A stretch of DNA of 64,000 nucleotides, taken from the NCBI GenBank assembly GCA_017387565.1, contig JAFOEY010000004.1, positions 62,001 to 126,000 of the forward strand. Reading direction: 5' to 3'. A program made the position numbers and the translations under genes. The number at the start of each line of letters is the position of its first letter. The stretch's first letter is position 1. Positions 61,217 to 63,315 of the stretch are shown here, one piece after another. The notes under the pieces were generated by a model. That model worked only from the letters and a program-made list of their open reading frames with translations. It did not search any database and was not told the origin of the DNA. This DNA is from Lachnospiraceae bacterium (GTDB taxonomy: Bacteria; Bacillota; Clostridia; Lachnospirales; Lachnospiraceae).

Positions 61217-61245
61217 TTGATAAAGATAATCATTATCAGTATAAT
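61217..61245 (+). promoter_or_regulatory. Promoter of the hydrogenase-like chemoreceptor
   Basis: TTGATA (61217-61222), 17 bases, TATAAT (61240-61245). A near-consensus promoter giving a leader of about 85 bases. A Fur-type box covers most of the -35 and the spacer. Confidence 0.8.
61219..61237. promoter_or_regulatory. Fur box overlapping the promoter
   Basis: GATAAAGATAATCATTATC matches the classical 19-bp Fur consensus (GATAATGATAATCATTATC) at 18 of 19 positions. It overlaps the -35 box and spacer, the usual position for iron-dependent repression. A PerR or Zur site is possible, because their boxes are similar. Confidence 0.8.
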
Positions 61246-61335
61246 AATGATGTAGTATAAATCGACGTCATATCCGTCAATTTGTATTACCTTGTAAAAG
61301 GAAAAAATATAATATGCTATATGGGGGATATACAT

Positions 61336-63294
61336 ATGAAAAAGGAAATCACAACAGGATTAATTCGTACCAACGAAAACTGTGTAGGTTGTAACAAATG
61401 TATCAGTGTCTGCAGCTGTAAAGGCGCGACCATCGCCGACAAAACAGAAGACGGCAGAAATGTTATCCGCGTTGACGGAGCCAAATGTGTTGCATGTGGC
61501 GCATGCTTTGATTCCTGTGAGCACAATGCCAGAGAATATGTCGACGACACCGAAGCATTCTTTGAAGCATTAAACCGTGGTGAACGCATTTCCGTATTGA
61601 TTGCACCGGCCTTTTTAGCAAATTATCCAAAAGAATATGAAAGTGTCCTGGGCGGACTCAAGCAATTAGGTGTCAATCGTTTCATCAGCATCTCCTTTGG
61701 TGCAGATATTACAACATGGGCCTATTTGAATTATATTAAAAAATACAATTTTCTAGGTGGCATATCCCAGCCATGTCCGGCTGTTGTCGGTTATATCGAG
61801 CACTATATTCCGGAATTACTGCCAAAGCTTTTTCCTGTGCAAAGTCCGCTGATGTGTGGTGCTATCTATGCTAAAAAATATATGGGTATTACAGATAAAT
61901 TAGCTTTTATCAGCCCTTGTATTGCCAAGAAAAAAGAAATCGAATCTCCCCGCGGACAAGGTCTGGTCTCTTATAACGTCACATTTGATCATTTCATGAA
62001 ATATGTCAGATCCCACAATATTTCAGGTCCATCCTGCAAGGATGAAATCGAATATGGTCTGGGCTCCATCTACCCCACTCCCGGTGGTTTAAAAGAAAAT
62101 GTCTATTGGTTTTTGGGAGAAGATGCATTTATTCGTCAGGTGGAAGGCGAAAAACATATGTATCATTATCTGGAAGAAAACAAAAACAAAATTGCGAAAG
62201 AACAACTCCCCTATGTTTTTGTGGACGCCTTAAACTGCGCTTCCGGTTGTTTGTACGGAACCGGTGTAGAAGAGGCAAAAACAAAAACAGATGATGCTTT
62301 GATCGAAATGATGCGGATTAAAGAACGCAGTAAAAATAATAAATTATTACATACATGGTCTAAGAAATTAAAACCGGAGCAACGATTCAAACAATTAAAC
62401 AAACAGTTTGCCGGTTTAAATCTGGATGATTTTATCTGTACTTATACCGACCGTTCGGCTGAATGCGCTTGGAATGAACCAAATCAGAAGGAACTGGATG
62501 CTATTTTTACAGAAATGAATAAAAATACCAAAGAATCCAGAAAAATCAACTGTTCCTGCTGTGGTTATGATACCTGTAAGGATATGGCCGTTGCCATTTT
62601 TAATGGCTTTAACCACAAAGAAAACTGTATTCACTTTGTCAAGAGTCAGGTGGAAATTGAAAAGGAAACCGCATCCAGTCTGGCAGTTCAGGTTGAACAG
62701 GAGAAAGATATTGTTGTGGCACAACAACAAAATATCATTGATACCATTTCCCGGATTAACAGCCAGTTTGAAAACGTTCATCGAGCTGTCGATGAACTGG
62801 CAAACGGAAACAACAACAATTCCAAAGAATGTGCCGATATTGCCAAGCATATGAATCATGTCAGTGATTTCTGCCGTCAGCTAAGTATTTCGATGAATGA
62901 AATCAATGATTTTGTAACAGAACTAACCGAAAACAATGCAGAGGTCGTTTCCATTGCCTCTCAGACCAATTTACTGGCATTAAATGCATCCATTGAAGCA
63001 GCGCGTGCCGGTGAAGCCGGACGGGGTTTTGCGGTTGTTGCGGATCAAATCAACAAACTTGCTGCCAATTCCCGTGAGACATCCACAAAGAGCGGCATCA
63101 CACAGGAAAAAATCCTGGCATCCGTTACAAAGCTTTTAGAAGATTCAGACAATTTACTAAAAACAATTACGGACGTAGACAGTCGAACCAAAAATCTGGC
63201 ATCCGTTGCAGAATCCATTGCCGAATCGGCTGAAATGATTCGCACCTCTACCGATGAAGTTAAGCACAACTTAGAAAAACTGGCAGAAAACTAA
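61336..63294 (+). CDS. [FeFe]-hydrogenase-like sensor fused to a chemotaxis signalling domain
   Basis: A soluble 652-residue protein. Order: two [4Fe-4S] ferredoxin motifs (Cys16/19/22/26 and Cys51/54/57/61); an [FeFe]-hydrogenase catalytic-type domain with the four H-cluster cysteines (Cys147 in QPCPAV, Cys195 in SPCIAKKKE, Cys301 and Cys305 in [11 protein letters not shown]); a small Fe-S domain (Cys406/409/414/431); and an MCP signalling domain (hairpin near 545-580, [20 protein letters not shown]). No membrane helix. The motifs match sensory, not bulk-energy, hydrogenases. It likely senses H2 or redox state and speaks to CheA. The start at 61336 follows GGGGGAT. A Fur box controls the promoter. 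Architecture is certain; ligand is inference. Confidence 0.9.
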
Positions 63295-63315
63295 TTGTTT
63301 TCTGCCAGTGTGCTT
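63280..63315 (+). terminator. Hairpin overlapping the chemoreceptor stop codon
   Basis: CTGGCAGAAAAC / GTTTTCTGCCAG, a perfect 12-bp stem with a five-base loop. The TAA stop is in the loop and the last four codons form the 5' arm. The T-run behind it is weak, so it may act as a terminator or a 3' stability hairpin. Confidence 0.6.

Follow-up and report, generated by a model that had tools for sequence, protein, structure and literature searches.

A soluble chemoreceptor with an [FeFe]-hydrogenase-like input module in a Lachnospiraceae genome, and what it may sense

What does a soluble chemoreceptor respond to when its input half resembles an [FeFe]-hydrogenase? The question is raised by a gene in a 64,000-nucleotide stretch of a Lachnospiraceae genome (GCA_017387565.1, contig JAFOEY010000004.1; hereafter the window), which a first-pass annotation had read as a receptor coupling H2 or redox sensing to CheA. 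The receptor is real, conserved and located in a chemotactic genome, and it belongs to a kind that has already been predicted, the class C2 of HydDB. As to its stimulus, we slightly favour a redox-receptor reading over H2 sensing, which is possible but finds no support in the genome within the searches made. The gene and its parts are laid out as follows:

61336..63294, + strand: receptor gene, 652 aa (open frame, Pfam and alignment)
61381..61413, + strand: first ferredoxin motif, C16/19/22/26 (Fer4_7; C16, C19 and C26 invariant, C22 at least 90%)
61486..61518, + strand: second ferredoxin motif, C51/54/57/61 (Fer4; all four cysteines invariant)
61588..62259, + strand: short [FeFe]-hydrogenase H-domain, residues 85-308 (PF02906; profile match to solved [FeFe]-hydrogenases)
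62551..62628, + strand: C-terminal Cx2Cx4Cx16C iron-sulfur motif, C406/409/414/431 (PF04060; invariant)
62638..63291, + strand: linker helix and MCP signalling hairpin with a 92-residue return arm (PF00015)
62992..63030, + strand: conserved tip of the MCP hairpin, 13 residues (read from the sequence)

The open frame around the gene spans 61282-63294, and its ATG at 61336, preceded by a ribosome-binding-like GGGGGA at 61323-61328, yields the 652-residue product; an in-frame ATG at 61321 is a possible alternative start. A Pfam scan recognised Fer4 (26.4 bits, cut-off 21.1), Fe_hyd_lg_C (PF02906, residues 85-308; 101.2 bits, cut-off 22.1, 9.3e-29), the FeS domain (PF04060, residues 403-432; 24.2 bits, cut-off 23) and MCPsignal (PF00015, residues 519-650; 80.8 bits, cut-off 34.6). 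The same scan gave no small-subunit domain match in the H-domain, and no PAS match occurred among the 21 Pfam families listed at E 1. The cysteines C147, C195, C301 and C305 as well as C406/409/414/431 are invariant in alignments of 16 and of 40 rows, and no stretch of the receptor exceeded the hydrophobicity threshold used for membrane segments. Pfam, the alignments and the hydrophobicity profile thus agree with the initial description of two ferredoxin motifs, four H-cluster cysteines, an extra Fe-S domain and an MCP hairpin in one soluble chain. Furthermore, homologues 28-66% identical to the receptor can be aligned over almost its full length, which argues that the frame is neither a chance one nor chimeric.

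The sequence around the gene offers modest candidates for its control:

61217..61245, + strand: promoter-like TTGATA-N17-TATAAT, 11/12 (consensus match only)
61219..61237, + strand: Fur-box-like palindrome, 18/19, overlapping the promoter-like site (consensus match)
63279..63309, both strands: terminator-like hairpin at the gene end (sequence pattern)

Promoter-like sites in the region number 4, against 6.5 expected, and the window holds three overlapping Fur-box-like matches with at most three mismatches, where chance would give 0.11 on average. The best sites ahead of 36 homologues differ from the 15-base box at three positions or more, which would confine any iron control to the window species. 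Sites resembling the sigma-28 consensus were absent upstream of the gene in the window, and two unconvincing ones were seen in 29 loci.

The chemotactic setting is plain. The genome encodes a CheA with five Pfam domains (Hpt, P2, dimerisation, ATPase and CheW) plus CheW, both of which the first-pass annotation had named as a check on its proposal. The same 20-kb stretch (L045) carries frames which, read by eye, we take to be FliM, FliY, FliR, FlhB, FlhA, FlhF and FlhG, together with others that presumably encode CheB, CheC, CheD and a sigma-28 factor. Across 200 genomes of the family, CheW is present in 41 of the 42 receptor carriers versus 66 of the 158 others (Fisher p 4e-12), an association that would be expected for any MCP; the sole carrier without CheW, G446, holds two kinase fusions. 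The return arm of the hairpin measures 92 residues in the window receptor. In most of its family the length is similar (84-99 in 38 of 41 members), whereas the arms of eight other receptors encoded in the window genome run to 127-156 (eight of its ten other MCP matches, L004, with no tip by pattern, and C41:27577 being set aside). Given this shorter arm, we infer that the receptor would not pack in register with the others over its whole length.

How widespread is such a receptor? Among 391 genomes of the same class, 18 (its own included) gave a match at E 1e-80 or better, and among 200 genomes of the same family with a completeness of at least 95%, 42 carried one at E 1e-60 or better. Forty-one of the 50 family matches listed extend beyond residue 600, i.e. 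into the MCP domain. In a named collection, the listed matches to the hydrogenase part include at least five Lachnospiraceae MAGs, one Clostridium MAG and one Bacteroidales MAG (L063-L068 and L105, read for motifs only). A maximum-likelihood tree of 78 ferredoxin-plus-H domains placed the window protein in a 53-row clade, split with 100/100 support from 13 other sensory-type, six group B and six group A rows; we name this clade QPC, a label coined here after its L1 motif. Alignment A2 and the tree omit L147 (in-frame stop, partial), L151 (short) and L028 (contig end), A2 alone further omits L019 and L155, L068 was kept out of the Pfam scan owing to a stop inside the matched range, and L032 was replaced by a longer frame in L049.

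Within the clade the module feeds 43 MCP fusions, seven histidine-kinase fusions and two GGDEF-EAL fusions, one row having no output; Pfam backs these assignments, with mostly hybrid kinases, both GGDEF-EAL proteins and one MCP joined to a receiver domain. The same fusion, which the first-pass annotation had suggested looking for, thus recurs in other genomes of the family. Six changes of the MCP label are needed on the 78-row tree, which suggests that sensor and outputs have been re-joined several times. The 13 other sensory-type rows include a Ruminococcus albus protein, and PAS was found in both of the two rows scanned. Within about 1.5 kb of the gene, no flanking open-frame family recurred in three or more of the 29 loci compared.

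Several members of the clade are worth recording in their own right. The GGDEF-EAL fusions lie at L177:1986-4544 and L178:2588-5155, and a FIST-domain gene immediately precedes each. At L155:1090-3462, a QPC-MCP fusion bears a C-terminal response-regulator receiver domain and has the histidine-kinase fusion L170 as its sister on the tree, and in G331 (L048:7181-11161) two QPC-MCP receptors from distant branches of the clade stand in tandem. A further fusion of the clade resides on NZ_CP154629.1, a 2.63-Mb record of Acetoanaerobium noterae that is labelled a plasmid and has four annotated features.

Whether the H-domain could house a complete H-cluster is best judged from its three loops:

61768..61776, + strand: L1 motif Q145-P146-C147, with proline replacing the proton-relay cysteine (CpI C299) (alignment)
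61912..61929, + strand: L2 motif SPCIAK, with serine at CpI M353 and lysine at K358 (alignment)
62224..62250, + strand: L3 motif DALNCASGC, with leucine at CpI M497 and the cysteines C301 and C305 (alignment)

Counted over 52 rows of the QPC clade, with CpI numbering transferred by alignment, the ligand positions C300, C355, C499 and C503 are cysteine in all 52. P231, S323 and P324 are likewise kept in every row, and K358 in 50. In contrast to group A, the proton-relay position C299 is proline in 51 of 52 rows, a replacement found in about 10% of HydDB sensory sequences according to the passages seen of the TmHydS paper (PMC10055695); M353 has become serine in 50 and M497 leucine in 51. The position of the group D glutamate E252 (V423 in CpI) is leucine in 48 of 52 rows and Leu252 in the window protein, in a register drawn from the description in the passages of PMC10407848, where group A has valine, rather than from an aligned TamHydS sequence. 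Variants of TamHydS at E252 are reported there to evolve H2 at 10-20%, and to oxidise it at <0.01%, of the original activity. From these replacements we infer that H2 turnover by the window protein would be slow or absent, which would suit a sensor, or else a site without the diiron unit. The leucine at M497 was considered as an argument against the cluster and dropped, as TamHydS also has leucine there (PMC8163306, in the part seen).

Comparison with known systems narrows the assignment. The HydDB entry for class C2, "Chemotactic (putative)", predicts H2 sensing via methyl-accepting chemotaxis proteins (PMC5037454); the passages of that description at hand do not state whether domain and MCP form one chain, as they do in the window protein through PF00015. 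Compared with the class description rather than by the HydDB classifier, the window protein agrees in being a sensory-type homologue linked to an MCP, with four H-cluster cysteines and a place on the tree apart from groups A and B, but differs in that H2 sensing is predicted for the class while maturases were not detected in the window genome. The curated group A and group B models score the receptor at 81.5 and 122.8 bits, far below their cut-offs of 406 and 450. Profile matches and tree bear out the earlier assignment to sensory [FeFe]-hydrogenase-like proteins.

TamHydS (group D, M2e) comes close, at least by the passages seen of PMC8163306, PMC10407848 and PMC13104023: it lacks PAS, has Cx2Cx4Cx16C, serine at M353 and leucine at M497, and is without the relay cysteine. 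It differs in having alanine rather than proline at C299, and those passages describe no MCP domain for it. Membership of group D was rejected, because E252, the key glutamate of that group, is leucine in the window protein. TmHydS (group C, M2f) shares the ferredoxin motifs, the H-domain and tyrosine at F417 (PMC10055695, in part), but group C carries PAS after the FeS motif, for which the window protein has no match. RUMAL_RS17375 of Ruminococcus albus, a group C protein encoded beside a SpoIIE phosphatase, similarly has ferredoxin motifs and an H-domain, yet falls in a tree set outside which the window protein lies. In its MCP hairpin on a chain without a membrane segment, the window protein resembles soluble chemoreceptors. 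As for the first-pass view that such a receptor is unusual, the chemotactic class is already listed in HydDB, and in literature judged mostly by titles and the beginnings of abstracts we noticed no experimental study of an [FeFe]-hydrogenase/MCP fusion. In an acetogen survey, C2 and [NiFe] 4f are named as the main subgroups of those hydrogenase calls that did not pass its checks (PMC9431212, in part), and a passage in PMC4266047 mentions hydrogen taxis in Methanococcus maripaludis. In the literature passages available we did not see described the clade signature, the missing maturase association or the GGDEF-EAL outputs.

A [2Fe] unit would call for maturases, and here the initial proposal of H2 sensing runs into difficulty. 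In the window genome (99.5% complete, and the only one searched for HydE), HydG gave no match at E 0.001, HydF gave 14 matches with none over cut-off, the top eight covering its GTPase part alone, and the best HydE match reached 60.8 bits against a cut-off of 254.6. Taken at face value this speaks against H2 sensing, and it is an outcome that the first-pass annotation had itself listed as refuting its proposal; however, we do not regard the absence as final, since the same genome encodes two [FeFe]-hydrogenases with canonical motifs. (Its group A enzyme, at L047:3795-5831 in G000:C41, is fused to rubrerythrin with rubredoxin-like ends and resembles a Clostridium perfringens chimera described in PMC11926857.)

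Across the 200 family genomes HydF exceeded its cut-off in 111 and HydG in 88, and 24 genomes had HydF without HydG. Of the 42 carriers, 22 have HydF and 18 have HydG, with odds ratios against the other genomes of 0.85 and 0.94; in 20 carriers both are missing over cut-off. The HydF label on 28 receptor-tree rows (28 of the 42 carriers, ten full-length matches without a locus being left aside) needed ten changes against a shuffled mean of 9.3, no fewer than by chance. In two carriers, G554 and G569, no hydrogenase is matched at the limits used for group A (E 1e-90) and for group B (E 1e-100), and neither HydF nor HydG exceeds its cut-off; the G554 receptor is 88% identical in its ferredoxin-plus-H region to the copy of G087, which has both HydF and HydG.

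Do such absences mean what they seem to? HydF or HydG was found in 111 of 184 hydrogenase-bearing genomes versus one of 16 others, so that the maturase search is not blind. Nevertheless, neither exceeded its cut-off in 73 of the 184 genomes that show a hydrogenase match of group A or group B, the window genome included (by the E-value limits of the presence lists, 141 genomes count for group A and 152 for group B, against 140 and 151 over cut-off). As a control we compared ten group B and ten group A proteins from genomes without HydF or HydG matches with equal numbers from genomes with them. C299, C355, K358, M497, C499 and C503 are identical in both sets, and the enzymes from genomes without HydF/HydG keep their motifs in nine of nine group B rows (L190 of this set not counted) and ten of ten group A rows read. 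The ligand position C300 is serine (TSCSP for TSCCP) in eight of ten group A rows with HydF/HydG (L211-L220) and two of ten without (L201-L210), and M353 is threonine in two of ten rows of the set without. Canonical enzymes in such genomes imply either that the absence calls are wrong or that maturation proceeds by another way, and the absence of maturases as proof in itself of a missing H-cluster was accordingly discarded. Missing calls are also commoner in assemblies of more than ten contigs (70/162 versus 3/22, Fisher test, contig counts read by eye from tables), and in Monoglobus and Bacteroides hydG occurs on records labelled as plasmids; assembly gaps or unbinned replicons may therefore account for some absences. 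A. noterae has HydG alongside its QPC-clade fusion. By motif, hydG was not found in five of eight Clostridium acetogens (PMC9431212, in the part seen). A literature search on missing maturases returned nothing.

Taken together, we put first, at barely short of an even chance, the reading of the window protein as a cytosolic redox receptor for CheA that does not need the [2Fe] half of the H-cluster. It draws on the domain architecture and its conserved cysteines, on CheA and CheW in the genome and the tie between domain and CheW across the family, on HydE, HydF and HydG staying below cut-off, on HydF and HydG being no commoner among carriers than elsewhere, on the scattered HydF label and the carriers G554 and G569, and on relay residues that are gone, the cysteine of group A (C299 to P) as well as the glutamate of group D (E252 to L). 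It is weakened by the [2Fe]-pocket residues P231, S323, P324, K358 and C503 that are kept, by the hydrogenase-bearing genomes that also lack HydF/HydG, by the fragmented assemblies and plasmid-borne hydG, and by A. noterae with fusion and HydG. The last of these, together with the four ligand cysteines, the retained pocket, the HydDB description and the carriers that do possess HydF or HydG, favours an H2 sensor instead, in which a full H-cluster would bind H2 or turn it over slowly and hydrogen would be signalled to CheA. TamHydS and TmHydS, which take up the cluster despite missing or changed group A relay residues (PMC8163306 and PMC10055695, as far as seen; in TamHydS with the Leu/Ser pair at M497/M353), add to its case. 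With maturases below cut-off in the window genome, no association of the domain with HydF or HydG and both relay residues gone, we consider the H2 sensor a serious contender that is, on balance, somewhat less likely than not.

The domain might alternatively dock a specific redox protein, be it a ferredoxin or either hydrogenase of the genome, and report its flux with or without a [2Fe] unit. Two ferredoxin-type motifs precede the domain, as such docking would have it, and 40 of the 42 carriers hold a group A or B hydrogenase, yet so do 144 of the 158 others, and no neighbour is conserved in the 29 loci; we deem this unlikely. That the receptor has no function in the window species is more improbable still, and very much so: the undetected maturases speak for it and nothing beyond, against an intact frame, conserved motifs and hairpin tip, and promoter-like and terminator-like matches.

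Under the favoured redox reading, the soluble chemoreceptor would carry as its input half a sensory module derived from an [FeFe]-hydrogenase, with a predicted content of up to four [4Fe-4S] sites, namely a pair of ferredoxin type, the cubane of the H-domain and a C-terminal one. This module would take up low-potential electrons, most likely mirroring the state of reduced ferredoxin in the cytosol, and a conformational change may then pass through the C-terminal FeS domain into the coiled coil, which would set CheA activity at the hairpin tip, path and direction both being presumed. The [2Fe] half of the H-cluster would be dispensable, at least in the window species, and the receptor would serve redox or energy taxis. 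The step through the C-terminal cluster is weakened by TamHydS, whose C-terminal cluster shows no H2 response and for which signalling by redox change was judged unlikely (PMC13104023, in the passages seen).

Extended to the family, the QPC clade as a whole may consist of sensors that descend from hydrogenases and have given up the [2Fe] half, i.e. a four-cubane redox sensor set on MCP, hybrid histidine kinase and GGDEF-EAL outputs and usable by bacteria without any hydrogenase, a proposal we hold tentatively and with some doubt. For the stimulus of the chemotactic sensory [FeFe]-hydrogenase class and its need for an H-cluster, the 88% identical copies of G087, a genome that matches HydF and HydG, and G554, one that does not, offer material for a direct comparison. 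If these receptors work without a diiron site, the H2-sensing label of the HydDB class needs revision; if the diiron site is needed, about 40% of the hydrogenase-bearing relatives sampled (73/184) have maturases overlooked by assemblies or profiles or mature their enzymes otherwise.
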